This document shows, in pieces, positions 3,678-51,039 of a DNA stretch of 64,000 nt (its first letter is position 1; every line of letters starts with the position of its first letter). The translations under genes and the position numbers were made by a program. The notes below the pieces were generated by a model. It had not been told where the DNA came from. It saw nothing but the letters and a program-made list of their open reading frames with translations, and searched no databases. The stretch is from the NCBI GenBank assembly GCA_946699065.1, contig CAMPDV010000093.1, positions 768,902-832,901 on the forward strand. The letters are read 5' to 3'. This DNA comes from Loxodes magnus (lineage: Eukaryota > Ciliophora > Karyorelictea > Loxodida > Loxodidae).

Positions 3678-6600
3678 TCAGTCATATCTATTACTATTGT
3701 TTGGTACTTTTCCTTCTTCTGTCTAATCATATAGCTAACTATCTTCTATTTGCTTCTCATAATTTTATTCGAAGCAATCAAATTCTGATCTGTAACTTTC
3801 TTTATCTAATTTAATTTTAAACTATTGCATTGGATTTTCCTAAAATGCTTAAATTTTTTCGGGTTAAAAAGTTTAAAAATTACATAGATTCAATTAAATT
3901 TTTCTTTTAATTAAGTTAAGCTAACTTTAAATTTCTTATTTATTATTTATCTAATTAAGTGTTTCCTCACATTTCATATTAAGATCTTTAGTTTCTCTTA
4001 GATCGGAAAATAATTCATCTTCGATGTCTTCTACTATTAAAAATTTATTTAGCCTTTATATATCTACTTATTTTTAAAATTATTAGATTTATTTCTTTTT
4101 ACTTTTTGCTTTTATAGTTTATTTATTGCTTCAAAAATCTATTTCTTTTATATCCCTTTAATTTTCTGTTATCATCCTATATTTGCTAAGAAATGCTTTT
4201 ACTGTTTAGTTTCAATATTACTGCATAGGTAAGTTGATAGCGATGTGATGATAGAGCTGATAAATAGAGGTATGTATTAAGAGTGATGATTCTAGTTACT
4301 TCAATAACTGAAATAGGGTTGAATCTTTAAAGAGTGAATATAGTTTCTTAGTATGCTTATTATCTTAATCTAAATCATAGTATTGAACTTATTATTATTT
4401 TGCTCATTTAGTTTGGTTACTTTTTTGTTTAGAAGCAAGTTGCTCCCATTTGTTAACTATCTGTAGTAGGTTAATTTGATTGTTGAAGCAAGTTAATTTA
4501 GTATAGAATTTGAAAGATTTCTATTACAATTCATATCCAAACTCCACTAAAACTAGTCTAAGTCATATAACTAGGAAGTAGCAATTTACTGATACAAGCA
4601 GTATAAATACAAATACATCTACTACTGGAAACTTTTATCCAGACTCGAAGTAAATTCCAGAATATAAGATGAAAGCTGAAATTAATAGGTAAGTGATTTC
4701 TAAGTGATTGATTTCCTTTTTAGAGTAAGGATTGAAAAGTAACTAGAGAATGATACAAGCAAGTATTACTAGGATAAGACATCAGAACTAAAATATGAAA
4801 GTAGAGTTCTATAGAAAGATAAATACCATTGATATCAAAAACTTCTCATACATTTTAATGAATTCTCAGTAGTAAAACTATTCTTTATACCCTATTGTTA
4901 GAAACCCTAACTATGACTTTATCTTAATACTCTTTATTTATCTTCTATGCTTATACAGATACACTACTACAATCAAAGGAACACCAAAGGCATAAATCAG
5001 TAAACTTGGAAGTGCAAATCTTAATACGAACTTAAGATGGTCTCCTTGCCAGCACTCTATATTAGTATATGAATTAAGAACAAAATGATCTTTAGAAATG
5101 CTATAACAACTGAAGGCAGTAAAAATAGTCAAGTTAAGGTTAGTACTGATTTAGAAAAAGGAGACACTTAAAGTAGTGATTAGGATAGATTGATTAAAAG
5201 GTTTGCATTTAAGTATTGATCATAAGAAAAGAGTGAAAGTACTAATAAGTAGAATGATAATAGGCATACTGATAATACTTATGACTTTATAATAATATCT
5301 TTACTCTTCTTAATACAAAAGACAATCAAATCTAAAGATGCTTTGAGTTACTGCTGTATATTATCCATTTATTTGGAACCAATCTTTGAAAATGTGTGGT
5401 CAGTTAAATTTAAAGTTAGAGATTAAGGTTGAGAATTACATATAATTAGTAAATATTTTGAAGTAAACTCCATAGTATTAGTCTTATTAATAGGCTGATT
5501 TTAAAGTTTAAGTGACTAGATAAATCAAATAAAGAATGAAAATAGTAACAACAAATGATGATATTATTGATTGTTATGTCTTGTTCAAGCATTTTTAGCA
5601 TTCGTTATTTTCATTCTTAGTATATTCTTATTCACATACATCACATAAAGTACCACTATAACCTTATGCACAGGATTAATTTCAGTTAATACTATTTTAA
5701 AGTGATTATCTTTATTATTAATCAGTAGTTTTGAGATAGGAAGTAACGAATTAATTAGTTAATGGAATTCCCTTACATGCTATAAAATTAGGACATTAAT
5801 GAATTTCTTGACTGCTTTAATTTTGTCTCCAATATCCTTTATTAGGAGTAACTAAGTCACTACCATGGCATTTTGCTCCTTTCATGCATTCTTTACAATG
5901 ATTTGAGCTGAAAGAATACTAACCATAAAGGCAGTTTTAGCAATATTTAGAATCTACTAGAATTTAACCTTAAAGACATTGCTACATTTTAACTTAAGAC
6001 TAGATTGAATTTATAGTTCCTTGAATTAAATGATCAATAGCGTTAGTTTCTATATCTAGTTGTATTAAAGTTCCAGGTAAAGCATTTATTATGATATCAG
6101 TTACATTAAAAATACCCTTATTTGCAAATAATCTTGTTTTACCTGCTAATTCAGCTTCTTTCGATGTAATAATAAGAGTTGACTGATTATTAGTTTTGAC
6201 TACTTAACCAAAGTAATCAGTTATGTAATAAGTAGTATTAGAAATAGGAAATCCAGGTAACTAGTCAGTAATAATTCTGTGAGAGTGATTGCAATGATGA
6301 AATACATCAGAAATAGAAGAATTAGAGAGTTAGTAAGCAAATGAAGCTAAATGATTTCCATAGTAAGCATAGTTATCTTTGAATAAAGAGCATCATTCAT
6401 TATCCTTTATTTCAGGAATAAAGACTGGTATAGTTCCTTAGAAGGAAATAGCTCCTCCTTCACTAAGTGTATTAGTAATTTTATTGTTTATGAATGAGTT
6501 TTTTTCTATTATATAGCTACAGTTCTATTCACAAACCAGTCTCAGAGCTCCTCCCTTCGATATTTTCTCCTCACCTTTTATTTCATTCTTTTCAAAACTG

Positions 6601-9600
6601 TTTTGAAAGAAATAAATATTCCCATTCTCAACATATCCAGCCCCTCCATGCTTTGAAACTATACAATTATCAAAAAGACTCTCACTTATATAATGTTGTT
6701 CATGTTTTCTATTAAAAATAGTAAAGCAAGCTCCATATTAAGCTTTTTAATAAGAACATGTACAATGTGACATATTCATTTAAGAATTTAAGATATATAA
6801 AGCAGAGCCATAAGTTAGTAAACTTTATCCATTCTAAAATGAAGTCCAGCTTATATCTAAAGTACTTTCTTCACCATAAATAGAAGTATTGAAATATTCT
6901 TCTAAAAGGCAATTTCTCATTATTAAAGTTGAACTTTTCATGCAAACAATAGAACCATAATCATTAGAGCTGATGTTTTTAAATGAACTATCATTAATTT
7001 CTAACCTTGATTAACTAGCATAAATTAGTCCTTTTTCATCTTCCATATTATTGAAATTACTAAACTCTATATTCAAAGACGAGTTTTATAAATAGATACT
7101 ACTTCCTTTACTTCCTATTCTATTGCGAAATGTTGAATTCCTAATGCTTATTTAAGATTTAAAATCACTCGAAATAAAAACTCCTTATTCTCCTTCTTGA
7201 TTTTCAAAAACTGAATTCACAATCTCAACACTAGCATTCCAAGTCATTATTCCAGAAGTGATGGTCTATACTTAATTTCCACTCATAGTGACATTTCTAA
7301 AGTAAAGATTACTTTCATAACAGAAAATAGTGGATGATAATGCCTGATTATTGATTATTTGAGTATTTAATATTTAACTTAATAATATTTAAGAATTTCA
7401 TAAGCTGATCATTCCCATTTAACTAGCATTGTTATTCTCAATTATTGAGTCTTTTATACAAAACTTGGAGCTCTAAGCATCTAAAAATGTTCCGCTAACA
7501 ATTATATTATTTGAAAATGCTGAATTATGTATAGTTAAAATACTATTAAGTTACATAGATCCAATTCCTCCATTATCATTACCTAAATTAAACTTGCACT
7601 CAATAATTAATAAGACTAATTAAGAATTTTATATATGGAATACTGCTCCTACTAATGCTTCATTATACTCCAAGTTATTTTATAGAATTCTTATATATGA
7701 TGAGTCACCTTTTATAATTCCACCTATAGTAGCTTTGTTTTAAGTAGCTATACTTTATTATATTATTATTTGTGTCTGATATAAACTAAAAACTCCTCCA
7801 TATATACCTGAGTTATTAAAGAATGTACAATTATCTATCAATATTTCATCTTTACTTGACTCTATAACTCCTCCAGAAAATGTTGCTACATTAGAGTTAA
7901 AAATACTCCTTTCTACTTAATAAACTGATACTTAAGAATTGATACATGATCCCTTTAATCCTATATTACTATCAAAAGTAGAGTTCTCTATTATAGCGTT
8001 AGCATATTTCATGAGTACAATGAATCCCTAGCTAGCATTGTTTAGTTCTATAAAACTATTAGATAAACTGAAGTTTTTGTTCTAAGTTTCAATTAAAGAT
8101 CCTATTTTAATACTATTATTGTAAAATTAGCTTTCTCTAATACTTATTTATGTGCTCTTTGTTTCTATTATTCCAAATAAAGCTTAGTTTTCTATAAATT
8201 AACTTTAATATATACTAAAGTTCTATAACTAGTAAGCGTAATTAATGGAATTCCCAATGTTATTATTGAATATGCATTGATAGAAAGATAGTTAGTTTGA
8301 TAGTAATACTTGTATTATATTTCCATCATTTGAAGTATTATTGTGAAAGAGAATAAAACTAAGAGAGGCATTAGAATTTATTAGCTATATAATAGATCCT
8401 TTAGTTACTTTGTTTTATATAATTTAGCTTTTTTATAACTCTAAATTCACTTAAGACAAGTACATTACTGTACCATCACCTTCATAGCTTTTTAGCGTTA
8501 TAGTGTTTACTATAAAAACCTAAGAATTCTCTGCATAAATGATTCCACCTCTTAATATAGCTTGGTTGCTTGCAAAGTTACTATTTATTATAGAAGTATT
8601 TGAATCTATTGAATATAAGAACCCACCATATTTGGCCGTATTATTTGAAGCAATTAATTTGTCTAATGATAAAATACTTTACTCCAAGTACACACTACCA
8701 CCACTATTCGAAGCACTGTTATTTAAATTGATAATATTCTACATTTTAATATCTGATAAAATGGAGTAAATAAATGCTCCATTAGTAGCATCATTATCTT
8801 ATACATCGATATTTTCTAAATTAGCTGTGCAATTATATAGAAATATAATTCCTTTTTATTTCGCTTCGTTTGTGTAAATTTTCAAATTATAGGCAGTTAA
8901 ATTTAATTATGAGAAATATGCAAAGGCTCCTTAATCTGCTTTATTATCCCTAGCTGTCAAATTTAACATTACTGTTTGCAATTCTTTAGAATATTAGTCC
9001 ATATAGAAAATTCCTCCCTTTTATTTAGCTTGGTTTTTTTAAAAATAACTATTTTAAATGGAATTAATTCTTGAATGCTAGGAATAAAAAAATCCACCAT
9101 CATTGTTTTAAGCTATATTTTCTATAGCTATAATGTTTTCTATGCTTTCGACTATAGAATTTTGGAGATAAAAAGCACCACCCTATAATTCTTTGACTTA
9201 GTTAGACTTGAGATAGCAGGTTTGGATAAGCAAAATTTAAGATCGTATGAGACTTATTGCTCCTCCATTTAAATCTACTGAATTGTATCCAAATTAACTA
9301 TTTTTTATAAACTAAAGTTAAGATTATTCAATGTACATAAAGCCACCACTTCCTAATAGTGCTTTATTTCTTAGAGCAGAAATTCATTCCATTTGAGCTA
9401 AAAAGGAAGAATTTACAAACAAAGCTCCGCCGTTTTGTTGATTTACTTAATTTTCTTCAAAGTTACAATTGCTTAATTAAGTTATTTGAGAGGAAATTAC
9501 ATTCAGTGCTCCTCCAGAAAAGCCTGCTTAATTTAAAAAAAAAGTAACATTTTATATTCGATTTATTTCTGCTGTTTCCATATATATACTTCCTCCATTT

Positions 9601-12600
9601 TACTCTGCTCTATTAGAAATAAAATTTATATTTTCGATAGAAGTTGATATATTTACTTCTTTTAGCATGAACACTCCTCCTGCAATTTTCGCAAAGTTTT
9701 AATTAAATTAATTATCCTTTATCATTATAATTTTTGAGTTTCATGCATACATAAATCCTCCATTTCCTCATGTCGCTTTATTAAGTCATGCAGTTATATT
9801 TTATATAATCATAAGGCTTGAATTTTATACATATAAAGCACCTCCATTTTAATAGTCACAAGTATTATTTATAAAGGAAGAGTCACTTAATTCTGAAATA
9901 TTAGAACCAATAGAGTAAAGCGATCCTCCATAAAGAGAAGCCTCATTTTAACTAAAATTGCAACTTTTAATAACTTCAATTCTTGATAGATTAAAGAAAA
10001 AGCTTCCTCCATTTTATCTTGCTTGGTTCTCAATAGATTCAATTTTGCTTATAAATTATATTTGTGATTGATAGGAGTAAAAAAATCCTCCATCAGTCTA
10101 GTATGCTCGATTTTCAAAAGCATTTAATGACTCAATTATTGAAATAGATGAATTGTACGTTAAAATTGCTCCACCGCCTTGTTGAAATGCTTGATTTCTT
10201 TCAAATATACAATTTATTAACTATGTCACTTTTGAGCTTTTAATATAAATAGCTCCTCCTGATAAAACTGCTTGATTTTAATAAAATTTAGAATTAGAAA
10301 TTCTATTAACTTCTACCCTTTCCATATAAATACTTCCTCCATACTAATTTGCAGTATTTTAATTAAATTATAAGTTATCAATTTAAGTTAAATTTTTAAT
10401 ATCTTGAAGTATTAAAGCTCCTCCGTTAAACCTTGCTTAATTATATTGCAACTAATTATCTATTATTTAATCTATGCTTGAGTTTTAAGCATAAAGGAAT
10501 CCTCCATTTCCATTAGAAGCTCAATTTTCAGAAGCATTAATATTCTATATTATTTGAATGGATGTATTAAAGATAAATAAAGCTCCTCCATTAATCTAAG
10601 TAGCATTATTTTAGTAAAAGGAAGAATTGCTAAATATTGAAATATTTGAATTGATGAAGTAAGCTGATCCTCCTGAAAATTAAGCTTTATTTTAGTTAAA
10701 AGTACAGTTTTACATTAATTTTATTATGGAATTTTCAAAATAAAGGCTTCCACCATCTTAGTCTACTGAATTAGATACAAGATCATTATTTTTTATATTA
10801 TTAATTTAAGTAAATTTTGTATAAAGAAAACCACCAAAAAAAAGTGCATAATTTGAGTTTGCATAAGTTTTTTCAAATAATTCAAGTTCAGAATCTTGCA
10901 TGAAAATAGCTCCTCCGTTTTAACTAGCTTGGTTCCCAATAAAATTGTTTATTTAAATAGAATTTATTTTGGTTCTGTTTATAAATAGACTTCCACCTTA
11001 TCTTGCTGCGTTAAAACTAAAGGTATTATTAATAAATAGAGAAGCATTTTATATTTCATTACAAGCAAAAACTCCTCCATTAAACGCAGCTTTATTTTTG
11101 CTAGAATTGTTGTTTTTTATCTAAAGATTTTTTATGTTCTACGCTCATAAAAAGCCACCATCTCCTTAATTAGCACTATTTTATTATATTAAATTAGATT
11201 CTATTGAAACTTCTTCTGAGTTTGCTATAAAGATAGCTCCTCCATTATATATACAACTGTTTTCTTAAAATGTATTGCTAGATATCAAGTAAAATTATGA
11301 TGATTAAATGAAAATAGCTCCTCCTTATTAAGCATTATTATTATTAATCGTGTTATTATAAAATACTAAGACTTTTGAGTTAGATATTAGGTAAAGAACA
11401 CCTCCTTTCTAATTTGCTACATTTTGACTAAATTTACAGCTTCTTACTTAATCAATAATTGAATTTTGGAGAAATAAAAATCCCCCACTTCCAATCACTG
11501 ATTTACTTGAACTGGAATATACACTTTCCATAACTATAATTTTTGAATTGTAAGAAGCTATTGATCCTCCATTGGCTTACTCGCATTTATTTTCATCAAA
11601 TGAAGTCTTCTCGATAGAGGAAATGTTAGAATTATTTAAATAAATAGCTCCTCCCGAAATTAAGGCCTTATTTAGTTAGAATTAGCAGTTATATATTTTG
11701 TTGATTTGCGATTTTTCTACATAGATACTTCCTCCTTTTAAACCAGCTATATTTTCTTAAAAAATTGATCCTAAAATTGTGTTGTTTTAAGAAAATATAA
11801 GAACAATAGCTCCACCATGATAACCTAAGTTTCTATAAAAGAAGCAATCTTCAATATGCATCTATGAATTTTCAGAATAAATGACTACTCCTTAAATCCT
11901 ACTATTAATGCTAGAGATATTCTAAATGTTCTTAATGTTTTCGTTTTACTAAATAAAAGCATAGGTAGAGATATTAAAATTGTTTTAGAATTTAGAACTT
12001 TAAATTAATAGCGAACTATTTCTTAAAATAAGTAAACTTAAATCTACATAATTGTTGATGAATTGAGAAATATACATATTAAGTGAGCTATTTTCACTCA
12101 AAATAAGGTCTCCAGTAATTTATGTAAAATTACTATTTTTAATTGTAATTTTTGAATTTTCCATATAAATAGCTTGCTTATTTTCTTAGATTTAAATACT
12201 AGTCATAGTAAAATTGGTTATTTCTACAGTGCTATTTACTATTTAAAATATTTATTAGTAGTAAACATCAAATTGCTATATGGTTACATTAGTTAATTTA
12301 AGAGTTGATTCTTATAATTAAAAAAATTAATAGTTAAACTTCCAATTGCAATCTCCGTCACATGAAGAAATATAGCCAGAGATTGTTATGTTTTTTAGAA
12401 TTAGAATGTCCCTTTTTAGTTTAATAAAAATAGCTGGACTTTATATTATTAGTTTTGCATTTTCAGCTGTATTATAGCACATATATTAATAGAAATAGTA
12501 TTAATAATTGCAATCATATGACTGTATAGTTACATTTTTAGAACTATTTCATAAATAATCTCATCTTAAAATCTCACATGAATTTTCCGAGTAATCGTAA

Positions 12601-12851
12601 TCTTAAGGGTCACAGAATAAATAGTGGGAATGGAGAGACAGATATATTATAATATTCGATTTCTCCTTTTAATATAAAAGAGCTTCTAGCAAAGAATTGT
12701 ATAAATTAGTCTCATCTATTTAATTTTCCCCGAATTATTGATAGTAATTTTCTTCATTTGTTACAAAAATTTCCTCAACTTAGGCAAACAATTAAAAAAC
12801 AAAGCAACTGAATAAAATTGCATATAGATTCATAGCGCACTTTGAAGGCAT
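3678..12851 (-). CDS. giant beta-helix/multi-pass membrane surface protein
   Basis: One uninterrupted frame of 3057 codons if TAA/TAG are Gln and TGA is Trp; sampled codons from start to end all sit in the same phase, with no frameshift found. It opens with a signal-peptide-like segment (Met at 12851 or 12833, hydrophobic LYAILFSCFVFQLFAQ). Next come about 2,000 residues of short repeats carrying GG(A/S/F)(I/L/F)(Y/F) turns and Asn-rich strands, typical of parallel beta-helix adhesin-like proteins. A Cys-rich part follows (around residue 2322, ending GYWRQN), then a multi-pass membrane region (about 2560-2760) and a charged cytoplasmic tail. TGA falls where this kind of membrane region has Trp: FYY[W]EFIK (4866), YFLVI[W]LRLV (4563). 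I infer a large cell-surface protein; ligand unknown. The stop is taken as TGA at 3678-3680, followed by TAA. Confidence 0.85.
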
Positions 12852-28420: not shown

Positions 28421-28429
28421 TTTAGAAAA

Positions 28430-29054
28430 ATTAATTTGAAAAATGTGAAAATTTTAGCAAAATTATCAAGCATTTAAAAAGATTGTAATGAAAATTTAAA
28501 TGATTTTTAAAATTAGAAAAAAATTGTAGATTATCGTTTTATACTACCAATGATTTTTAAATAAATTTAATTTATTTATATAAATTTAATTAAAAATAAT
28601 GAAATTATATTGTATTTTTTTTAATTTTGAAAAATTCAATTTTAAACAAAAGCTTTTTAATTTTATTAATTTTAATTTTTTTAAAATATTTTTATTTGAA
28701 AACAAAAGCAATAAACCTAATAAAATTTAAGCAAGTTATAATATAAAATTACTTTATTTAAAAATATATGGTAAAAGATATAATCTCATAAAAATAAAAA
28801 ATAAAAAATTTTATTTAGAAAATAAAAAAATTATATTAATTTATCTACACAAAAAATTATTTCCAAAAAATCAGACATATTTCCTTTATTTTTAAATTAG
28901 GATTATTAATCTCTACTTTTTTCTGCTATCGAAAAATGTTTAGTTTATTCGACCAAAAGTTTTAGGTAATTTAAAAATTAGCAGAAGAAAATAAATATTT
29001 TTTCGTTTAAAAACCTATTTAACTCATTTTCTCTTGTTTATTACAAAATATAAA
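28430..29054. other. AT-rich spacer upstream of a LINE ORF1
   Basis: Homopolymer-rich, with no coding signal. It separates the divergent LINE ORF2 fragment (minus strand) from the ORF1 at 29055 (plus strand) and could hold the latter's 5' untranslated region. Confidence 0.4.
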
Positions 29055-31354: not shown

Positions 31355-32803
31355 TCAACTCGCTATCTTCCACTTTCTAACCGTATTATCTTAACTTCCC
31401 GAGATTATCCACTTGTTATCCTTACTTATCACTACACTCCTTACTACAGATGTATGACCTTTCAATGTATTCATGCATTCCCCGGTTTAGAAATTCCATA
31501 TCTTTATAGTTTTATCATAGCTACCTGAAATTATTCTCTTGCTATCGTGTGTTAAGATTACTGATTCGATCGAACCTGAGTGGCCATTTAAAGTTCGAAT
31601 ACATCGACCAGTTAGAAAGTCCCATATCTTTATCGTTCTATCTAAACTTCCCGATACAATTCAGTTCTGGTCACTTGATATCGCTACAGATCTCACATGA
31701 CTCTTATGACCTGTTAAAGTTCGAATACACCGTCCTGTTGAAAAGTTCCATACCTTTATCGTATCATCATAGCTTCCTGAAACAATTCATTTCTGATCAT
31801 TTGATATAGTTACTGAAGTTACCCAATGGGTATGACCCAACAAAATACTCTAATTTACAAAAATTTAATTCTCTTCTTAGGTACTATAATTGTCATAATT
31901 TATTTATTTAATCTAAGTAGAATTCGCTAATAGATCAAAATTCTTTAAATCTTACTCCCTTGTCTAGTTTATTAGATTTTTTATTTAAAGTGCTTACTCA
32001 TTTATATCTTTTTCAGTATTTATCCAACTACTTTCATTTTACTCATTTTTTACAATTATAAGCTATGCTATATTCTTATATGAATTATCTAGCTTGCTAA
32101 ATACATATCAATTTTATTAAAGTAATTATTAAATTGCTAGACTCATTATATTCTCTATTTTTATTTATATCTCTTATATTAATTAACCTTTCAAACTAAT
32201 TAAACTTATCTAGCTATCTTTCTCAGAGTTCTTTACTTACTCATTCTCTTCTAAAATTGCTCAATTGCGGTTTTTCACCTAAAAAATTTTATTTATTAAT
32301 TGGGTAAGATTTTGATAAAAAAATTCTAACTTAAAGAATATTTATTAAGTTTGCTATACTTACTATTAGCTGATTATTTTTGATATAGTTTCTATCTTGT
32401 CTTTTATGTCTTAACTTTCTTAACTTACTAGCATTTTTGTTTCACTTTAAATCTGTTTAATATAGTTTAAAATAAATTCATTAGTAATCGTAGCCTAGCA
32501 AATCTATATTTTATCCTTTATATCTATCATTAGCTTCTTTATCGATTCTAACTTATCTTATAAGTTTATCTTTTACTAATTACTTTCATTCAAATAGTTT
32601 TTCATGTCTTCTTAATCTTCTTTAATTAGTACTTTAGCCTAAAAAGTAATAAATGCTATCAATATAATGAACATAACAATCAAACAATCTTAAAGGTTTT
32701 TTAATCTTTTTTCTATTTTTTAAACTCTTTAAGTTTGATATGTTTATTATTACAAATTCTAGAAGAAATCTCTCTCATAGATAGCATATTAAATGCTTTC
32801 CAT
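31355..32803 (-). CDS. coiled-coil/WD40-repeat protein with a membrane segment
   Basis: Intact 482-residue frame from ATG 32803 to TGA 31355-31357. Order: N-terminal Gln-rich region, one hydrophobic segment about residues 45-62 (IVMFIILIAFITF), a long coiled coil (about 70-320), then four WD40 repeats. The repeats show the GH...SV.IS.D......SGS.D.TIK.W pattern. In repeats one and two the strand before SGS reads DQK[TGA]IVSGS and DQN[TGA]IVSGS; in repeat four it reads DNKWIISGS with TGG. This pairing inside one gene is strong evidence that TGA is Trp. Two more TGAs lie in NRN[W]AILEE and QQN[W]YVFS. The final TGA follows the last WD strand (VRKWKIAS) and precedes AT-rich DNA, so it is likely the stop. 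Probable role: membrane-anchored scaffold; partner unknown. Confidence 0.85.
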
Positions 32804-34170: not shown

Positions 34171-34545
34171 ATATGGCCTCTTTAAAATAAGACTTAAATT
34201 TTAAGACAATAGTTGGTCCTATATACCTACAGATGTCCAAATGACCTGGGCTAACGCTCACTACACTGATGCAGCAAATGAGATCCTAAATGAAGCTACT
34301 CGACAACATCGTAGATAGGATTTACCTTTGCAATTCTTGGTCATCAAATTTGAATTCCTTGTAAGTGAAGCCATCGGCTCGCACTGATTAAGTCCCTGCT
34401 CTTCATATGCCACCCGTTATTCCTACCGATTTTGAGTGATCAGGTGAATCTTTCAGACTAAAAGGAAGTTAAATTAACCTAATCACTTAGAGGAAGGAGA
34501 AGTTGTAGCAAGGTAGCCGCATATGAACATGCGGATGGATCATTA
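34171..34545 (+). rRNA. SSU (18S) rRNA, 3' end only, divergent
   Basis: Begins at a match to the segment before the conserved AGATGTCC and GACCTGGGC blocks and ends at the usual GGATCATTA. Recognisable blocks include CTACACTGATGCAGC, TCCTACCGATTT and CTTAGAGGAAGGAGAAG. About 1.4 kb of the SSU is missing at the 5' side, where ORF1 copy 3 abuts. The normally near-invariant decoding region (TACACACCGCCCGTC in most eukaryotes) reads CATATGCCACCCGTTA. The last helix keeps its pairing through a compensatory change (CCGCAT with ATGCGG). Most likely a decayed gene, possibly one that diverged under constraint first. Confidence 0.85.
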
Positions 34546-34643
34546 ACATTAAAAAAGCTAAAAAGCTAAAATCTATTTATAGCTTTATGCTTTTTTTATT
34601 AAATTGAATATATAAACATAAAGAAAAATCCAAATGATAAAAG
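34546..34643 (+). other. internal transcribed spacer 1 (remnant)
   Basis: AT-rich spacer between the SSU end and the 5.8S homology; position only, no conserved sequence. Confidence 0.6.
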
Positions 34644-34790
34644 CCTAGCTTCTGACATCGATCAATGACTTTGTGAAGCGCGAATTTCATCGCGAATGTC
34701 AAGAATTGACGAGTCTTCAGATTTTCCAACGCAACATAAACCAAGAGAAAATCAAGGAAAGTTCCTTTCGGTATATAATAGAAAAAAATG
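34644..34790 (+). rRNA. 5.8S rRNA, divergent
   Basis: Recognised by order and by short blocks: GCGCGAATTTCATCGCGAATGT in place of the usual AACGCAGC...AATGCGATA block, then the GAATTGAC and TCTTCAGATTTT...AACGCA positions. The 5' portion is poorly conserved, so the start is approximate. Lies between SSU and LSU in the normal eukaryotic order. Confidence 0.7.
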
Positions 34791-35701
34791 AATACTTATA
34801 AGAATTCTCTTATTAAGAGAAAAAATGAGTATATGTATTTTGATTAATGAGAAGCAAGATAACCCGCTGAACTTAAGCATATCAGAAATATGAAGAAAAG
34901 AAATAATAAGGATGGCCTTAATAACGGTGAGTGAAACAGTCAAAGTCCACTTTTAAATCTTCTTAAATGTAATCTAGTGAAGAAAGGTATAGATTTAATT
35001 GGACCTAAGTAGTGAGAAATGACAAATCATGAATGGTGATAATCCCAAGAGTTTTAATTAGATTGAAAACCAAACTTTCTAAGAGTCGGACAGCTTGGCA
35101 TTGCTGTTCAAAGTGCGTCTTAAATTCTTCGTAAGGCTAAATTTGTCCAGAGCTTGATAGTGCACAAGTATTGTGAAAGAAAGATGAAAAGCACTTTGGA
35201 AAGAGAGTTAAAAAACCTGAATTGGAGAGAAAAGCTTTACGTTTATAATAAGTTTGTGCAAAACTTTGAAAATAATTATTCCAAAGATATATTTGATTGA
35301 CCTTCCCGTTCTTGAATTTTAGGCCAAAAAGTCTATGCATATCGCGGGACTTTACATGAAAATGTATAGGCGAATCGAAATGACCTCAATCATCAGTAGA
35401 GATTCGTAAGTGGATTAAGCGAAATGGCTGGGGTCTAAAATATGCCTAGATATGCTTGGGCAGGATAAAGCTGGGGAAATTTTCTCAAAGTTCTATCATG
35501 ATAGATGGGATTTTTAAAACATTAAAGCCAATGCTCACAAAGAGGTCACAATTCCTCCTATAAACAACATTAAATTGGGCTCAGTAACATTTCATAAATG
35601 AACGATTCAAAATATAAATTACATAATGGGCTAGTATTGGCAATCAGGACTAGCGATGAGAATCAGCCTGAATCAGAGTAAAGGTGACAGAGTTCGTCTA
35701 T

Positions 35702-35715
35702 AAGTAAAAGCATTA
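35702..35715 (+). repeat. 14-bp direct repeat, left flank of insertion (target-site duplication)
   Basis: AAGTAAAAGCATTA, repeated exactly at 36675-36688, bracketing the non-rRNA insert. It looks like a target-site duplication made when the element entered the LSU gene. Confidence 0.75.
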
Positions 35716-36674
35716 AGTATTAAAAAAATGGAAAAAAACCCGGGAATCTAAACCTTAAATTCTAACCTTAAAGATCAATCTTAAGTCTCAGTTAACTAAC
35801 AAGAACCAAGAATTCAAAAAGAGATAAATCTACTCCTGTTAAGGATTGGGAAATAATGAATTTCCTACCAAACTAAAAAAGCTTGAGAAACTCCTCGAGC
35901 AAGACATTATTTAGCTTTATTCATTAATTGAGAAAATTAATACCGAAATATAGATCCTTAAGACGGAAAACTTGAATCTTTGGCTTCTTTTTTAATATAG
36001 AAAAAAAAGGAAGATCAAGACTTGGCAAGTAAAGTTTATTTTTAAATTTAAGCTTTAGCTTCTTAATTTGAACTATTAGAAAAAAACCTAATAGCAAATC
36101 AATAGAAAATTAAAGAAGAAATTAGATTACCAATCAAAAAAACTAACCTCAAAGAGTTAAGAGGGAAATTGAAAAAATGTAAACAGAATCAAATTTTAAT
36201 TCAAGCCCTTAATAAAACGTTGTTATTGTTGTCAAAAGGCTGGAAATTTTTGGAGGTAATGTCTGAAGTGAAGAAGTGTGCTTGAGCAGCACCGTAAAGA
36301 ATTTGGAACATCGAGGAGGCAAAATTGTAACTACTTTTGAGGTATTTACAGAAAGAAGCTGATATTAGATGATTCAAGTGTGACACTAATCAAACAGGAT
36401 CTTGGTAATTAATAGTAACAGAATAAATAGCATTAAAAGGATAACAATGACCTTAGAATTTGTTTAGAGAAGCTGGAAAAAAATTACAAGAAGATGGGAG
36501 AACAATTTTATGAGCTTATTGAAGAGAAAGAAGAACTATCTCAGTTTGAAATTGATTCAGATGAAGAAAGTACAGTTGAGTATTCGATACAAAAACTTTT
36601 ATTGTCTTTTATTTGAGGAAATATTTCCTCTGATTAAAGATGACCCTAACCCTTATAGTTAAAATTAATTAATA
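35716..36674 (+). mobile_element. gag-like retroelement fragment inserted in the LSU gene
   Basis: About 960 bp with no rRNA similarity, flanked by 14-bp direct repeats. From ATG 35728, and after one frameshift near 35855, one frame can be followed to about 36615. It has a coiled-coil start (KLKKLEKLLEQDIIQLYSLI), a basic region, then a knuckle-like CYCCQKAGNFWRQC (C-x2-C-x4-Asn-x4-C, His replaced by Asn), then LILDDSSVTLI, weakly reminiscent of a retroviral-type aspartic protease core but with DSS for DSG/DTG. It ends in an acidic coiled coil. Four TGAs fall in frame, some perhaps Trp. The protease idea is weak inference; the knuckle is seen. It could be an ORF1 of another LINE family. Confidence 0.6.
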
Positions 36675-36688
36675 AAGTAAAAGCATTA
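36675..36688 (+). repeat. 14-bp direct repeat, right flank of insertion
   Basis: Exact second copy of the repeat at 35702-35715; rRNA homology resumes right after it. Confidence 0.75.
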
Positions 36689-38235
36689 GTTCATTTGACA
36701 GTAAGATGATGACCATAGCATTTGGAACCGTCTAAGGAATGTGTAAAAACTCATCTACAAAATGGGCTAGCCTTTTAAGAGGAAGCTGTGAAAAGCGGGA
36801 CTGAACTCTGCCTTCTGGTATAGGAGGGCATAGTATCTGCATGGAAGTTATTCTGTAAAAGTTGTGGAGCAGGTCCTACTGCAGATCTTGGAGGTTGTAG
36901 CAAATATTCCAACGCCAATTAAGAAGACGGAAGTAGAGAAGGTTTTCATTAGAACGCCCTGAATTATAAGTCACGCGATTCTAACCTTACGAGGAAAAGA
37001 ATAAAATATAATTCTTAAACAATTACTAATAGTGGTGATTTAGTATATCGCAATATGTAAGGGTTGGTCCTGGGGAAATTTATCTTGTCTGTCTAACACA
37101 CATGGAAATCCATAATGATAAGAGAGGCGTGATGTATGGAAGAGTATTACATTGTATGTAATGTCAGGAGCACCAACTAAAATTCCTAAATTTGCGGTAT
37201 ACAATATGTAGTAGTATTACAGGATCTATGCCTCAACAAATATCCAAGGTTAGCAGCTTCTAGTCAATAGTTAATATAGACAAAGGAAATCGGTAAGTTA
37301 AATTTGTAACTTCGAGAAAAAGATTTGCTCTGAGGACCAGGTAGAAGTTTCCACTAGAGGGATTGTGTGAATAATTTTCACGGAAGTGGAAGTTTAGCAA
37401 CCATGACCGAAGGTGGTCGGCCCTGAGGTGAATAACCACTTCAGAACTGGAGCGGTAGCATTAATCCGACTGTTTAACTAAAACAAAGAAATGTGAAGCT
37501 GATGTGTTAACATAAAGCCGCGTTTACTTATTAAGTTCTATTAGATATTATTTCTACCCAATGCTTGAATGTCAAGGTGATGAGATTCAAAGAAGAGAGG
37601 GTAAACGGCAATAGTAATTATGAATCTTTTAAGATAGCTTGACTACTCTTCGTCTAATTAGTGACATTCATAAACATAAAAATGAGATTTCTACTGTATT
37701 TATCTATTATCTAGAGAAGTCATAGCCAAAAAACTCTTTTACCATGTAGTAACTTTCTAGCAATATAATTGGTGTGAGAAACCACCTGATGGAGCGTTAT
37801 TTTTGTTAAAAGAAAATACAGCTATCGTAAACCAGTTAAGAACTCGCAGTTCAAAAGGAGAAAAGCTGAGTTCATTCAACTTCTCAGTGTCAGGATGAAC
37901 TGGGAAATTATGGTCTATCAATTCTTACTTTTTGCGAGTTTAAACCAGAAGCATCAGAAAAATTTACATGGGTAACTTGCTTGTGGCAGCCAAGTACTTG
38001 TAGCCACGTTGTTTTTTGATTCTTTGATGTCAGCTCTTCCTATCATTTTAAGTAGAATTCTACCAAATAAAAGATTGCTAATCCGTCAAAAGAGAACAAG
38101 AACTGGGTTTATAATGTTGTGAGACAGGATTTTTACCCTAATAACCACCGAGTCGACGATAGCCTAGCTCAGTACAAGAAAATCCGTTGGTCCAAATCTC
38201 TGGCATCTTCATTGGTTAAGCAGCCCGTGTTGCTA

Positions 38236-38965
38236 CACTACCTGAGACAATAAAAGCAGAAATGAAAAAATATGCTACGTACTTAGAATAAAGAATGAGA
38301 TGTAATGGATACAAGTATTGCTTGAAAGAAAAACACCTAGTTGTGACAAGTCAATGCCCTTTCTGTAAAGATGTAAAATAAAATAAAAGGCATATCATAT
38401 AAAAATGTTCAGAATACAATAAAGGAAGATAAATATGTATTTGAAATCTAAGAGCAATAGGAGTAGAGATAAAGAATGGAATTATTTGATGTAATATGAG
38501 GTACGGCTAAATTCGAGAAATGAATTAGAACCTAAGAAAAGTATAAAAGATCTAAAGCTTTCTTGATAATAAAAGATGATATCAATGATATACTAGAAAA
38601 AAGGAAAAAAAGAATACATAGAAAAAATTTTGAATGAAAAAAAGAAATAGGAAAATATTATAGAGCTGGAAAAGGTCAATTTTTATGAGTATATAAAAGC
38701 TTGATTAAGAAACGAAAATTAGTAAGATATGTAAGAAAAAATAAAGATGCTTGCAATAAAGATTTAATAAAGCATAGATAGGTAGAAAACAGAAGAGTAA
38801 GAGATAATGTAGAGGAAAATGATGAAGATAATTAAGTAAGAAAATAATTTAATTGCCTAAAGAATTTCTGAAGAAACAGACATATATTGAAGTATGGAAA
38901 GAACTGAGCACCAACGAGGTTCTTTATGCTCTATAAATAAATTTGTTTCTTATTTTTTTTGTTAA
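38236..38965 (+). mobile_element. LINE family 1, ORF2 3' part and tail (copy B), joined to the LSU
   Basis: Directly continues from the truncated LSU: the words ACTACCTGAGA fit both the rRNA and the LINE, so the junction lies in a short shared sequence. The protein end carries CPFCKDVKQNKRHIIQKC (C-x2-C-x8-H-x4-C), then a Lys-rich coiled region, closely related to copy A. TGA is conserved at the same three codons as copy A. The tail at about 38905-38935 (GAGCACCAACGAGG...ATGCTC) matches the tails at 27622-27655 and 51500-51540. 5' truncation and insertion at a 3' rDNA position fit target-primed integration. Confidence 0.75.
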
Positions 38966-39114: not shown

Positions 39115-41335
39115 TGATCATGGAAGAGTCTCAGCAAATCATAAGACAAGCTTACTCTCATGTATACAACCCAAAGTTAATATCTAATGGTTTACAAATC
39201 TATTTTACCAAGTTGTATGTGATAAGCCTTCCTCAGTATTCATGTTTACATCTTTTATGCTGCTTCTATTTTATTCTCCATGCGTTTTTTCAAAACTGAT
39301 GTTCTCTTATTATATGACCTAGATACTAAAAAGTCTTTTATCTTTTGGTCCTTAAATTTCCTATCTCGATAGTAATTCCAATTTTTCTCATTTACTATTT
39401 TCTGCTGCTTTTCATATCATTTATTTTGCTTTATCTGCAATTTCCGATTTGTACTTTTTTGCCCATGAGGATTAGTGCTTTTACTTAGTTTGCTTATTTT
39501 TTGAATTGTTTTCTTAATTTTATGTTAAATTTTTGATTACTTCCTCTAATTATACCAATTTATTTATTAAGACTAGGTCATCTTCGTATGCAAAACATCC
39601 TGCATATATTTTTTATGTTCATCCCTCTTCGTTTTTATAGTCTTTTGTAATTTCTAGCTTTTAATCTTCCAAACTATGAAGAAGTCTTGCTATTATCAAG
39701 TTAAATAGTCTAGGCGACATTATGCTTCCCTATTTTAGCCCTTTATTTGTCGCGAATGATTTTACTATTTAATAATTTATTTTCGGTTTAATTTCTTCTT
39801 CACAGTAAAAGTTTTCTAGAAGTTTATTATCTATTATAGTACTTTTAGATAGTTTAGGATCTATCATATATGTTTTCTTTGCACTGAGTCATAGGCTTTC
39901 TTAATATCGACGGATATTAAAAAAACATCTTTTTTGTTCTGCATTAATCATTCCTATACTGTTCTTAGTTGAAGATGTATAGTGCTCATAATTTTCCTTT
40001 TTTTGAAATCATATTTGTATTCTCTTTCACCATTATGAAGATATTCTTACAATTGCTAGAAAATTCATGTGACTACAATTTTTAAAGCAAGATTCAATAA
40101 AGAGACTGGTCTATAGTTCATTTGGTTCATCTATCCTCCTTTTTTGTTTATTAATATTATGTATTATTATTTCATTTCCTAAATTATTACTCCCTCTTAA
40201 ATCATCTTAACTATCATTTTGCAAGTTATTTTTATTAACTTTTTCCATCTGCTAAAATTGTTCCTATTTATAATACATCAGGTCCTGCAGCTTTTCATTT
40301 CGCCAATTAGTTTATGCTTTCTCAAATTTAATACTTATTTACCATTTTTTTTAATTTAAGGATTTGGTTGATAACAATGTAATCACCATCTTCATATATC
40401 TACTATCATTCATCCCTGAAAGTCTTAGCTTCTTCTTTTGATAAGGGTACTCGCTAATTATTTTTTCTATTAAGCAGATTTTTTAGTTTCTTCCACATTT
40501 CTGTTAGGTTTCCTTTATTTACATTGCAAATAATTAGGCTAAGTTAGTTTCTTTTATCTTTTTTTCTTGATTAAATGTATTCTTGTCTATCTATTTCGTA
40601 TTCTCTATATTCCTCGTTTTATTGATTTTCATTTAATTCTTTGTTGTTCTTTACTTTTAATTTTAATTGTTTGCTGCATTTTCTGAAAATTTTATTACAC
40701 TATTTTGTTGTTTCTGAGTATTTATATATTTTTTTAATGTTTTAACCGTTACACATACCATTTAAATTTTTTTCTCATATTTTTTCTTTCATCATTTATT
40801 AGTCTATGTACTGTTTAGGTTATCAATTTCTTCTTCTTAGACAAAAATCTTTCAAATTATTCTTAGATTTTTATTATCTTTATTAGTAAGTAATATATTT
40901 CTGTTACCTTTTATGTTTTCTAAATTATTTTCCGATTTTTATCTATATAATACAGGTCCTCGGTCCCCTATCACGTATGAGTAATAAAATCACTTTTTAT
41001 TACTTTTTCTCTAATTATTTCTTCAATTACAAAGTAATCTATTTTATATTCATTGTTTTAGTTAACAAAAATACCAATTTCAGTTGAGTATAAGCATATT
41101 AAATTATTCTGTTCCATGAACTGTAGCATTCACTTTCCAGTAGAATTGTTTATTTTATTAACCATTTCTCTAAGTGCATATTGAAATCTCCTATGATCAT
41201 TGCATTAAGTCCTTTTTTTATTGCTTATAGTTTAAATTAATTCACTAAATTATAAAAAGTTTCATAATACTCATTGTCATTTGCAATAGGTGCATATACA
41301 CCTTATAATAAAATATAATTCATTACTCGCTAATT
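39115..41335 (-). pseudogene. LINE ORF2: AP endonuclease and reverse transcriptase, frameshifted
   Basis: Minus-strand polyprotein. Near 41190 it shows the endonuclease core IIGDFN preceded by YAPIANDNEYYETFYNLV. Then come KAAGPD (about 40285), YRPVSLLN, motif A SVDIKKAYDSV (about 39890-39915), motif B GLKQGSIMSPRLFN (about 39710-39750) and motif C AYEDDLVLI (about 39575-39600). The Gln of motif B is encoded by TAG. TGA appears as a probable Trp in KHI[W]QIL and EEG[W]TQKI. At least three frame changes break the gene, and the N-terminal endonuclease half is missing, as in 5'-truncated LINEs. It encodes DNA nicking and target-primed reverse transcription; this copy is dead unless the indels are assembly errors. 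Confidence 0.75.
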
Positions 41336-42093: not shown

Positions 42094-42099
42094 TGCCCT

Positions 42100-42780: not shown

Positions 42781-42789
42781 TTTAAAAGT

Positions 42790-43797: not shown

Positions 43798-45465
43798 ATG
43801 TATATTTAGTAGTGTCTAAAGTGTAAAAAATCTAAGAAATAGACCAGATTTACATCCACTCATCTAAATTAAGGTCGTGATTTATGCAAATAATGTGCTT
43901 AAATAAAATCAGCGAATAATGAATCTCAACTTAGCGAAGCTTGCAAATAAAAAAAAAATAAAGATTTATAAGATTAGCGAACTTAATTAAAGGATACTCC
44001 TTAAAGTTTGCACAAATTTTAAGATTTAGCATCTGAATTTTTCTGTTAAAAGCATTTTAAATAGTCTTTTGCAATATGCAAAATAGATAATTAATTGATA
44101 TGTAATGATTGTAATGTTGAGGATCACTCAGGTCACTAATTTTAAGTATTGATAGATAATTTAAAAGAATTAAGAGACTAAACTGAGTAAAATTTATAGA
44201 ATTTTAAGTAATAAGCAAATTTAAAATAAAAATTAGAAGATTACTAAAATTAATATAATAAATCACAATAAGAAGTATAAAAATCTCTAAAAGTTATTTA
44301 AAATTTATAATAATACTTTTAGCAAATGGTTTAGAGAATATGTGAAGCAGAATTAAGAATGTTTTTTAAATTACAATAAGAATACTAATAAAAATTAGGT
44401 ACAAGAAAAGAACAGCTAGATAAGTTGATTAATGAATTAGCAAAAGTTGAAGAAATGAGTTCTAATTCATTTTAAAATTGTAAAAATAGAGAAGAACTTT
44501 TGTAATCGCTAGTTGGAAAATTTTAATAATTTAAGTAAATAGAAAATGAAAATTAACTTGAATAATAAGAGTAACTGGATGATAAAGAATTGGAGTAAAA
44601 ACTAAGAAATAAAATTATACAAATCTTAAGCATATGAATATAGGAAAAAAAAAAAATCCCTTACTTGTATTATCGTAGAATAACTTACAACTCAAACGAA
44701 CTATAAAGCTTTAATCTTGCTATCAATAAATTTTCTCTTAATAATGTTGTAAATTTGGATTCAGTAACTGAATGTTAATCTTTTTCATTATAACTATCTG
44801 ATAGTAACTTAGTAATAGCTGGTGGATTTCCTAAAAGCAATCACCATAAATATATGACAATAATACAAGAATAATAAATAAGTAATAAAATAAAACTAAT
44901 AAACCCAAAATGCATTCCATCACTTGTAAATGACAATAATAACTTTATTTACATTATAAATGGAGCGGATTCTAATAAATGCTTAACAAATAATTGTGAA
45001 GTATATGACATAAAAAGGGATAAATAAATTCAAATAGAAAATCATATATTTTCTTTTGCTTTTAATGGAGTTTGTCTTGCTTTCGATTCAATTTATACAT
45101 TTGGAGGAAAAAAAGCACGAAAAGAAGTATGCTGTTATGATATAGAAAGAAATGAATGGATAGAAGAACAATAATAAATGCCTAATCACGGGGCATGAAG
45201 TGTATCAACTGTATGAGTATAAGAAAACGAAAAAATGATGCTTTGAGATAATCAGTCTCATTTATGGGGAACATATATTTACGACAGAGATAAATTTATA
45301 AAAGAGGGAGAAGCATTTCCTTCATAGTATATTCCTTATTGATTTTGGTATAATGGAATAAATGAGTAAAAAAGAATTTGAATGTACTCTGCTCATCCAA
45401 AGGAATAAAATGATATATATTGGTATGATTTATCGCATGGAAAAGAATGGAAGAAAAATATTTGA
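43798..45465 (+). CDS. B-box zinc-finger/Kelch-repeat protein
   Basis: 555-residue frame, no frameshift, from ATG 43798 to TGA 45463-45465. The N-terminus has paired Cys (CLKCKK...CKQCAQ, about residues 6-35), then a B-box-like CQKHFKQSFAICKIDNQLIC...CNVEDHSGH (about 79-110), a Gln-rich coiled coil (115-280) and a C-terminal Kelch-type beta-propeller half. The last includes IYTFGGKKARKEVCCYDIER followed by NEWIEEQQQMPNHG. TGA occurs as Trp in SI[W]IQEKK, HGA[W]SVSTV[W]VQEN, MML[W]DNQS, IPY[W]FWYNG and KRI[W]MYSA. The last TGA, before AT-rich DNA, is taken as stop, but it too could be sense. TRIM-like architecture suggests a protein-interaction scaffold; no RING ligase motif is certain. Confidence 0.8.
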
Positions 45466-45840: not shown

Positions 45841-45871
45841 ATATAAAAAAGGATAAAATAATTATTTTGCA

Positions 45872-46200: not shown

Positions 46201-46209
46201 AATTTTTTT

Positions 46210-46930: not shown

Positions 46931-46934
46931 TAAG

Positions 46935-49745
46935 CAAAAAAATGTTTTTTTTCGACTCGAAGTTTGAAAAACTTTAGAAAATGTTATGTCTTTCTCTAAG
47001 AATGCAATTAACTCTGTAAAGCATTTTTGTCTTCTGAGAAAGGCCGTCAAACCTCGTACTAAAATAAAAGTTTACTTAAATTTTGTTGAAAAAATCGCGA
47101 CCATAATAGAAGCCAAAATTTATGCAGCTAAAGCATATATTTCCGATTTTTTTTTCATTATTTAATTTTTAATCCATTTGAAGTATCAAGCAAATTGAAA
47201 AATTGTCTCTGCTAAGAATCATTATGAAACATTCATGTATTGTTTATTTTATTTAAACCAAGTGTTCTTTGAATGCTCAAAATCTTGAAATCAGTGTTCA
47301 GAAAAAGTTAAGGAAAAACATAAAGATCTTAGCAAAAATGAATAAATAATGTTTAAACAAGCTAAGAATCTAATAAACCCAAAAATTCGTAATTAGATGA
47401 ATTTTAACTTTAACTAACAACAGCAATTTGAAAATTGGGAAACTAACGTTTTTGATAAACATTCGAAAATAAGTAAGATAAATTTTGACTTCTCAAATAG
47501 AAAAATAGATGGAATATTTAGAAATAAATCTTTTATCTTAAATTAGGAATTAAGTCATTTATAAAATATGCCTCTTTTTACGTGATTTGAAATTAAAAAA
47601 ATTATATCTTGGCTTGCAAATAATAAAGCTACAGGTAATGAGGGTCTAAAGCTCAGCTTATTAGATATGGAGGTTAAGATTTGCATTAAATTATTACAAG
47701 TTTCATTAATAACATGCTTAGAACATTTAAAATACCTAATGTAATGAAAAAAATAAACATTCTTCCGATTTTCAAAAAGGGAAACAAAAGTAATTGATGT
47801 AATTGACAACCTATCGCTTTATTGAACTATCTACTTAAAATTTATGATAAAGCACTAACATAAAGATTTTAACATTATATTTATGAACGAAGCACTTTAC
47901 ATCCAGCCTAATTTGGATTTATTCGTAAACGCTCCACTATTTAGAAAATTTGAACTATTTAGTAAATTATAAACTTGCATCGTAGATGATCTCATAAAAT
48001 GTAATTATTGCTACTTTAATAGATGTAGAAAAAATGTTTGATAGCATATCTAGGAAATTACTTTTTGATCATCTTAGAAGACTTAGGTTACCTTTGACCT
48101 AATATGGCACTAGAATCTTTTTATGATAATGTTGATGCTAAGTTTATAATGATGGATATCTTACAAGAACAATTAAATATAACAATGGATTACTATAAGG
48201 AAGTAATCATGCACCTGTACTTGCAATTTTATACTATGATATTGTTATAAGATATTTAGAAGATAATCAGAAGAAATTAGGATTTCAAATATTATCTAAA
48301 ACTTTCGTATAACGAGCCTTTGCTGACGAATTAATCCAAATATCATCTTCCTAGAAAAATGCCTAAAAATTATTACAAGCTACATCTACAGTTTTTGATT
48401 GAGTAAAACTTACAATTAATGTAGATAAATGTGAAGTAATAGAATTCTTGAAAAAAAATCAATGAAAAGAAAGCTAACTTTCTATTACTCTAAAGCTCAA
48501 TGGAATTCTAATTGCTTAAAAAGATGAAGTTATTTAGAATATTTGCTAGGATAAAATAAAATTACAAATTACATTGTACAGAAGTAGCTACCAAACACAG
48601 AGTAGCTAGTTAAAAAGCTACTGCAATACTTTTAAATATGGATTAGCATCCCCTCTCAGCTTCAAAACTCTTTGTAGAACTTTTGTTTTGCCTAAAGTTT
48701 AATATGGAAGTAATATTACTCCGTGAGTTACTATTTCTGGAATTAAAGGAATAAAAAGCAAGATAGCAAAATCGTAAAGGTTTATTTCAAGATGGGCGTT
48801 TAGATCTTAAGAATTCACATTCAATGATTCATGCTTTATTGACTTAAACTGGCTTCCTTTTACACATAAGGTAACTAAAAAGTTAATGCACTTTTATTAA
48901 AAATTAGTATAATACAGCAAAGAAAATCCTAACTCAGACACTGCTTTTTTATTAGAAAAATGCACTAAATTTAATTTACCATACTAGGAACATATAAAGA
49001 GATGTATCGATTTGTATAATTTTGACATGTCACATGTTTAAAGTAATATGGATTTTTATAAACTCACGGAATAAAAAATAAATTCTTAATGGAATGTCTC
49101 TCTATAAATACACTTATGCCAACAGCAAAAAGAATTATAGCTAAATAGAAAATAATTAAAGTGTATTTCCTGAAATTACTTACACTAAATATAATAAACA
49201 CTATATTAGAGAGACTATTTCCATCTATAAACTAAGAAATTTTTCTTATAATTTTCAATAAGAACTCAGTAATTGCTACATTAACGTTAGAAATAGCATT
49301 ATTTGCTTATGTGGCTATGACTTTGATGAAACTGATCATATTTTTTATTGCTAATACTATGCAGATATTATTGAGGAATTCGAAAGTCATAAAGTTCTTA
49401 AAGAAAAAGACAAAGAGAAACTAATTCTTTATGACTAAAACTATATAAGCAAATATCTTTCAAAAAATCAAATTCCTAAAATAGACAAATTAATCAAAAA
49501 TTTTAGTTCCAAATTACTAAAAAAGCGTCTTGAAATGTTTAAACTACAAGATGAGTTGTTAGAAGAGTTTCTAGAAGGAAAAAAAAGAAAAATTTCATCA
49601 AGAAAATAAATAAAAATATATGATAGTGAAAGAACAAGAAGAAGCTTGATTGACATTTACAAATTTTTATCTTTCAACATATTTTTAATATTTATAGTCT
49701 AAGTTATATCTATTGCAACTATGTCTCAATATTCTTAAATATGAA
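46935..49745 (+). pseudogene. LINE family 2 ORF2: reverse transcriptase, frameshifted
   Basis: A reverse-transcriptase protein distinct from the minus-strand one. In-frame from ATG 46986 (or upstream) to about 47690, reaching the fingers motif WLANNKATGNEG. After frame changes: PIFKKGNKSN[W]CN[W]QPIALLN (about 47760), HPAQFGFIRKRST (Gln from TAA), motif A TLIDVEKMFDSISR (48015-48050), motif B GLLQGSNHAPVLA (Gln from TAA, 48187), motif C AFADELIQI (48316-48340), where the second catalytic Asp is Glu, then FD[W]VKLTINVDKCEV. A C-terminal zinc motif CLCGYDFDETDHIFYC lies at about 49304-49351, followed by a basic coiled tail. No endonuclease core was seen upstream. At least three frameshifts mark it as dead or misassembled. 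Confidence 0.75.
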
Positions 49746-49779
49746 AAACTATAATATTTTAATTAATTAATTGGAAATC

Positions 49780-50990
49780 ATGCAGCTTAGATCATTAAGA
49801 GCTTTAATAGATGAACTTTTTTGTGCTTAAAATCGAAATCCTGGAGAATTAACTGAATTTCCTTAAACTACAATACTATATGTGATAACGTATGTTAATG
49901 TTCAGAAGAAAATTGCTTCTAAACTAAAAATCAACATTGGATGGATGAATATGTCAATTAACAAAGAGGAATAACTATATATTTGAAACATAACTCAAGG
50001 AAGGTAATGGAGGTACTACAACTTCATGACGACATAATAATACAAGATAACTGAAAAGGAATAGATGGAAAATTAATGATAAAAAGCGATAAAGTTCCAT
50101 AATGATGTAAATTCCATTACACGAATGTAGAATATGATCACCTGCAAAAAATTAGACTGAATTAAATGAACAATTCATACAAGGAATACCAAACTATCCA
50201 AGATTCAACAAACACAGAAAACAGGAAATATGATACTTATTTAGGCAACGGGCCAAATGTAATGGATTAGCATAGGCAATGAAAGAAAAAAATCTAATAG
50301 AGAGTGAAGCATGCTAATTCTGAAATTATAGAAAGGAAGATGAGATCCATATAATAGAAGATTGCAGATAATACAAAGAAGAAAGAGAATAGTTAATAGA
50401 AAATATCACGAACGTAATTATCAGTAATAACTAATAAAAATAAGCCTTCTTAAACCTCAGGTTCGAAGAAATAGTGTGAGGAAATTACAAATTTGAAAAT
50501 TTGATACGAACTCTACAAGTAATCAAAAAAAAGAAATAGATTGTCACATTAAAAATTTTCTGCAAGATATATAAAAGAAAATAAAATGGGGTTATATTTA
50601 AAAAATTCTTCCTTATTAGAAAAAAACGGTAAAGACTATAGAGCAGGATCCAACGAGCATATTTGAATTTATAATCATTTATCAAGAGGACAAAAATAAA
50701 AATATTATTTAGCAACTTTATAACAATTCTAAGAAAATGTAGAAAGGAACTTGCGATGCCCTCAGAAAAGACTAACAGATAGCTTAACTATCTAAAGACA
50801 AATGAAAGAGTTGAAAAAGTAATAGATATAAATAGAATTCTACTGTTTTAAAAAGACCTAATGATGGAGATTGACTCTAACTATTCAGATCAGGATATAA
50901 TGAATCTATTGGAAGAAAATTTAGAAGATTCTGGTCTGATAAGATAATTTCCAAGAATACTCTTACTTTTGATTTTCTCTTAATTTGTGG
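49780..50990 (+). mobile_element. LINE family 1, ORF2 3' part (copy C), degenerate
   Basis: From about 50150 the frame matches the C-terminal zinc region of copies A and B: YLFRQRAKCNG, then CQF[TGA]NYRKEDEIHIIEDC, where TGA replaces the second Cys of CPFC. It continues through EEIV[TGA]GNYKFENLIRTL, whose TGA is in the same place as in copies A and B, and on to a Lys-rich coiled end (about 50950). The part before 50150 (MQLRSLRALIDELFCAQ at 49780) looks coding but is in another frame. The typical 3' hairpin was not found after this copy. Amino-acid similarity to A and B is low, so it is a diverged lineage. Confidence 0.6.
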
Positions 50991-51039
50991 TCAAAATATC
51001 AACGGTGAAACCACGTAAATTAATTGATTGGTTAATTCA

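Follow-up and report, generated by a model that had tools for sequence, protein, structure and literature searches.

The nuclear DNA of the ciliate Loxodes magnus almost certainly follows NCBI table 27, in which UAA and UAG (UAR) are read as Gln and UGA is read as Trp inside genes and as stop at gene ends. The code was studied in a stretch of 64,000 nucleotides (64 kb, hereafter the window), which is the end of contig C93 (CAMPDV010000093.1, positions 768902-832901), and the genome was searched beyond it (705,730,643 bases, 7843 contigs). The reading of UGA as Trp in L. magnus is already known and published, the macronuclear genome having been assigned to table 27 with UGA as the sole stop (PMC11441545). 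The sole fresh detail in comparison to the published work is a large amplification of the tRNA-Trp genes thought to read UGA. Table 27 was recoverable from one 64 kb window and confirmable genome-wide, and standard gene calling would find little in such DNA, as table 11 yields no open reading frame of at least 150 amino acids in the window.

TGA in a giant gene and in kinase domains

Within the window the code was followed mainly in a giant gene encoding a beta-helix membrane protein:

3678..12851, minus strand: giant gene, from ATG at 12851 to TGA at 3680-3678, 3057 codons
5400..5402, minus strand: TGA in frame within FN[W]PHI; 3 of 4 homologues have Trp there
4866..4868, minus strand: TGA in frame within FYY[W]EF; 4 of 4 homologues have Trp there
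4563..4565, minus strand: TGA in frame within FLVI[W]LR; 3 of 4 homologues have Trp there

The frame runs from the ATG to the terminal TGA without any frame change and includes 19 TGA, 7 TGG, 166 TAA and 43 TAG codons (209 TAA and TAG altogether). The gene is open only with TGA as sense, as the earlier note on this DNA had stated. TGA makes up 0.62% of the codons, and in the remaining five frames over this stretch it occurs 34, 88, 88, 41 and 54 times. The protein contains right-handed beta-helix repeats (Pfam Beta_helix, 3e-29). A coding score that had the giant gene as its training set was strong on this gene and poor on the other genes of the window, because it had learned the composition of one protein.

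A protein search with the C-terminal part as query gave four homologues (P0001-P0004) from 2445 candidates. The last 840 codons were aligned to these with TGA masked as X, so as to keep the Trp reading from biasing the alignment. Of the nine TGA in this part, seven aligned to at least three of the four homologues, and three of the seven (5402, 4868 and 4565) fell on Trp columns, of which there were seven among 597 columns (hypergeometric P = 3.4e-5). In the unmasked alignment three of five TGA were placed on Trp columns (591 columns, P = 1.0e-5). The two membrane-region sites singled out earlier from the sequence, FYY[TGA]EF (4868-4866) and VI[TGA]LR (4565-4563), were both present on the minus strand and both matched by Trp in the homologues.

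The kinase domains of the genome provided a second set of alignments. A Pfam kinase search gave 5592 first-look candidates, of which 136 were scored and listed, and an alignment with the three stop codons masked was made of the best-scoring 30 of the 136 loci; in each of the 30 the orientation determined from kinase motifs matched the listed strand. These loci are selected by score with a search that reads through stops and do not represent a random sample. Altogether 13 of the 21 TGA in them were situated in columns with a Trp majority among the rows with standard codons, and the mean Trp share of the TGA columns was 0.59, 72-fold above background, an effect far exceeding that in the giant gene. 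The best Trp column, which is taken to be the conserved Trp of the DxWS motif, included 22 TGG, 7 TGA and 1 Tyr. In the columns of TAA (117) and TAG (67/68) Gln was the most enriched residue, 6.3-fold and 7.5-fold over background, respectively. Its mean share was just 0.09-0.10, lower than those of Glu and Lys, and the enrichment of Glu was approximately twofold. The Trp preference of the TGA columns in the giant gene and in the 30 kinase domains, together with the top enrichment of Gln at TAA and TAG, bears out the earlier proposal of TGA as a sense codon, probably Trp, alongside TAA and TAG as Gln.

Gene ends, known codes and alternative explanations

Three gene ends were placed in the window by loss of homology and fall of the guanine and cytosine (GC) content, without transcripts:

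3678..3680, minus strand: TGA regarded as the giant gene's stop
31355..31834, minus strand: C-terminal gene part with WD40 repeats; its stop is taken to be TGA 31357-31355
43798..45465, plus strand: kelch-type gene whose N-terminus is rich in Cys and His (by eye); 6 TGA and 5 TGG in frame; its stop is taken to be TGA 45463-45465

TGA stands at all three ends (3680-3678, 31357-31355 and 45463-45465), three being few, and UAA or UAG at none of the three. In the same order, the GC content is 14, 11 and 9% over the 90 bases past the ends, against 26, 36 and 24% over the coding parts. Going upstream from each end, the first sense TGA lies 151, 102 and 28 codons away and the first TAA 29, 12 and 19 codons away. 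According to the published L. magnus pattern, UGA and UAA, and not UAG, are depleted across approximately 20 codons before the stop (PMC11441545). With this depletion TGA agrees at three of three ends and TAA at one of three. The giant gene also has TAG 15 and 19 codons ahead of its taken stop.

Some of the observations weigh against the code as stated. Of the 21 kinase TGA, one is in an Ile column, and for seven the column has no majority residue. Four of the seven alignable TGA of the giant gene are off the Trp columns, in columns of Leu, Tyr, Leu/Met and Thr/Met type. In the beta-helix part, for which there is no such alignment, TGA is often found in variable, Gln-like positions (by eye); between TAA (Gln) and TGA (Trp) there is one transition in this code, which could explain these places. 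Furthermore, TAA occurs less than 20 codons before the taken stop in two of the three genes, contrary to the published depletion. This last point, with TAA 12 and 19 codons ahead of the ends, is the sole difference found from table 27 as described for Loxodes magnus and Parduczia sp. The data otherwise agree with that table in UAR = Gln and UGA = Trp within genes and in having UGA at the three placed ends, with sense UGA at least 28 codons away from them.

The earlier note had pointed to a three-codon reassignment of the karyorelict or Condylostoma type, and the former, table 27, fits better than the latter, all three placed ends (few as they are) being TGA. The code of Condylostoma magnum (table 28) likewise reads the three standard stops as sense with identical amino acids, so that UGA = Trp and UAR = Gln are common to both codes. 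In Condylostoma, however, also UAA and UAG terminate, whereas TGA is found at every placed end here and UGA is given as the only stop of L. magnus (PMC11441545), and the use of table 28 is consequently highly improbable. The code of Blastocrithidia (UAR = Glu, UGA = Trp) resembles the present one in its tRNA-Trp(CCA) with an anticodon stem of four base pairs (bp) and in that no UCA form was found; it differs in UAR, as Gln is the most enriched residue here and Glu only about twofold enriched.

With the common ciliate code (table 6) the present code shares UAR = Gln, but in table 6 UGA is solely a stop, and here it is also sense. The exclusion of that code in the earlier note was upheld by the TGA in Trp columns of both the giant gene and the kinases. 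It could still be argued that the genes are decayed copies, in which the TGA are mutational stops under the ordinary ciliate code. Frame changes do exist in the relics of long interspersed nuclear elements (LINE) and in the 3' part of a RING/WD40 gene of the window, and a degenerate copy of ribosomal DNA (rDNA) is situated close by. Decay is nevertheless scarcely credible as the explanation: the giant gene has no frame change through 3057 codons, the TGA are concentrated at Trp columns both there and in 30 kinase domains spread across the genome, and TGA and TGG occupy the same WD40 column. The column belongs to the WD40 gene near 31.5 kb and includes, over four repeats, TGA 31789, TGA 31663, AGA 31537 and TGG 31411; all four codons of the WD Trp in this gene are TGG.

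Two further candidates were dropped. One was introns as the origin of the in-frame TGA, the three best TGA lying within conserved stretches, and the other a germline-only pseudogene region, L. magnus being reported to lack canonical germline-limited elements.

tRNA-Trp genes and the release factor

The tRNA-Trp genes were searched for over the genome with sequence patterns, which are rigid, and with the reversed pattern as a control. The tRNA-Trp(CCA) pattern was found at 171 places versus six for the reversed control. Among the matches listed (100 of 171 places) there were 17 distinct sequences (hand count), five of them with tRNA-like D- and anticodon stems. Two of these five form arrays on contigs C67 and C148 and have a mismatch at positions 27-43 (27A.43C and 27U.43C), thus an anticodon stem of 4 bp; two on C110 have 27U-43A and a 5-bp stem, and the fifth, from C48, likewise has one of 5 bp. 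Samples from C67, C148 and C110 were identified as tRNA-Trp(CCA) by ARAGORN and as tRNA by Rfam. The core of the 4-bp form had 124 exact matches in the genome versus two for the 5-bp core, counts in which other variants would be missed. Among the 4-bp matches listed (100 of 124), C67 had 48 and C148 had 52, with one of these 52 outside the array and in the opposite orientation. A narrow A-box pattern for tRNA-Trp(CCA) matched 13 places, with an ARAGORN tRNA in none of the 13 loci. Among the matches listed, the tandem arrays of the 4-bp form extend as follows:

C67:482309-491186: units of approximately 187 bp
C148:157310-169435: units of approximately 241 bp

Loxodes has, or appears to have, a tRNA-Trp(CCA) with a 4-bp stem also according to published work (PMC13092985, PMC12005148). 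For tandem tRNA-Trp arrays, the word tRNA was absent from the main text of PMC11441545, and no title or abstract opening on the subject was found in a literature search that left supplements and most subscription papers outside.

The tRNA-Trp with a UCA anticodon, which had been suggested as a check of the code, was not found by pattern across the genome. A loose pattern gave 142 places versus 190 in the reversed control and thus nothing above control, and none of the 53 distinct sequences (hand count) among the matches listed (100 of 142 places) folded as a tRNA; a strict pattern gave no matches in the genome and one in its control. Reading of UGA by a tRNA-Trp(UCA), through a nuclear gene missed by the patterns, mitochondrial import or anticodon editing, would be compatible with the rigidity of the patterns and with the looser one having been seen for 100 of its 142 places. 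In view of the strict search and of the control exceeding the loose pattern, it seems unlikely. For Condylostoma, PMC4967479 reports a nuclear genome without tRNA-Trp(UCA).

The feature associated with short-stem decoding, a tRNA-Trp(CCA) with a 27-43 mismatch, is present here, and the short-stem form would be the putative decoder of UGA in L. magnus cells. The short-stem tRNA mechanism is said to originate from Kachale et al. 2023. Inside a gene UGA would be read by this tRNA, outcompeting the release factor eRF1, and near the poly(A) tail eRF1 would win and UGA would terminate. A model of context-dependent termination was put forward in Swart et al. 2016, which leaves open which tRNA-Trp reads UGA in Condylostoma. 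In PMC4967479 sense is proposed as the default and termination as imposed by transcript ends.

It is tentatively suggested, as a possibility that may well prove wrong, that gene dosage sets the balance of UGA between Trp and stop, with a rare 5-bp-stem tRNA-Trp(CCA) for UGG and a hugely amplified 4-bp form for UGA. If true, the abundant 4-bp form would hold UGA in sense mode everywhere but close to the poly(A) tail. The arrays make it testable whether the amount of short-stem tRNA-Trp, not its structure alone, keeps UGA sense.

Other tRNAs were also found repeated. tRNA-Lys(UUU) was detected in all the 22 loci run through ARAGORN (of 30 tRNA loci), situated on C64, C78, C103, C158 and other contigs, in some cases adjoining tRNA-Ala(UGC). 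The tRNA match table, in which 63 of 42786 candidates were scored, shows regular spacing of approximately 527, 1752 or 1753 bp on C103, C158 and C78. With tRNA-Lys and tRNA-Ala clustered or repeated as well, arrays may be formed by tRNA genes in general and not by those for Trp in particular. The tRNA scan of the window detected no tRNA genes in its 64 kb.

A genome search with the first domain of eRF1 gave three matches. The best-scoring one (L074, contig C2) lacked the NIKS motif in the stretch inspected. An eRF1 gene was found at C196:19713 (L075), and a second match of nearly equal score at C196:54613. The usual eukaryotic motifs of eRF1 are TASNIKS and YxCxxxF; L075 has RAQNIKS and FLCENTF. 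To judge from the sequence, these changed motifs would fit a factor that ignores UAR. In PMC4967479 single eRF1 changes have no obvious association with codes. L075 has no internal TGA and has three TGA within six codons at the gene end, which look as if they were back-up stops.

Reverse transcriptase relics and other features of the window

The remaining genes and relics that bear on the code are the following:

47699..47998, plus strand: upstream reverse transcriptase piece in a different frame, containing N[TGA]QPIALLN, TGA 47804-47806
47953..48445, plus strand: LINE reverse transcriptase relic (RVT_1, 9.4e-14), TAA at the Gln of motif B at 48196
39300..41300, minus strand: second LINE relic, spread over several frames (by eye), with TAG as the motif B Gln codon at 39732
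53100..55290, plus strand: RING-like, pentapeptide-like and WD40 gene (domain names by eye), with TGA as the WD Trp codon at 55131-55133

The reverse transcriptases had been counted among the genes that stay open in one frame. Both are frameshifted relics, and because of this the evidence that they provide is weaker than the earlier note thought; being broken, they are unfit as evidence of the code. The relic at 47953..48445, which also has TGA at 48400 in FD[W]VKLTINVDKC, is frameshifted relative to the upstream piece. The motifs are scattered across several frames (by eye), and one relic has FADE in place of ADD, the canonical reverse transcriptase motif. A protein search with one piece gave 352 candidates and none at E <= 0.001, and the Trp columns were therefore judged by eye only. 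N[TGA]QPIALLN was indeed present from 47801 on the plus strand, TGA included, but its value as evidence is weakened by the frameshift of the element. TAA and TAG stood at the Gln of motif B, as predicted, in both relics inspected. In the RING/WD40 gene, the TGA at the WD Trp exists, at 55131-55133 and not at 55129-55131, where it had been placed.

This gene has frame changes near 54.92, 55.03 and 55.2 kb (by eye). Just upstream of them, at 54525-54981 (plus strand), is a WD40 repeat unit of 123 bp in 3.7 copies with 94% match, which is a recent expansion within the gene.

Three similar broken pieces resembling LINE 3' ends with a Cys/His motif (by eye) are located at 28100-28500 (minus strand), 38299-38450 (plus strand) and 50100-50400 (plus strand), and one of them adjoins the rDNA relic (by eye). 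The latter, at 34200-38260 (plus strand), is a degenerate copy that includes the 3' part of the small subunit (SSU) gene, a 5.8S-like stretch (by eye) and the large subunit (LSU) gene; it starts within the SSU and continues into a LINE 3' fragment (by eye). The SSU scored 141.7 bits when searched from 34001 and 80.3 bits from 32300, and was absent from the listing of the whole-window scan; the LSU scored 375.4 bits, less than would be expected of a full-length match. Close to the 3' end of the SSU, some pairs are apparently kept by two-sided change (by eye), and others are marked as non-standard.

A GC-rich gene for signal recognition particle (SRP) RNA is situated at 2180-2414 (plus strand; Rfam Protozoa_SRP, 66.5 bits, barely exceeding the cut-off of 65). 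From 57877 to 64000, reaching the contig end, the window consists of a satellite with 65 copies of approximately 98-bp units (188 and 286 also fit), which is very poor in C, with a GC skew of approximately 0.79.

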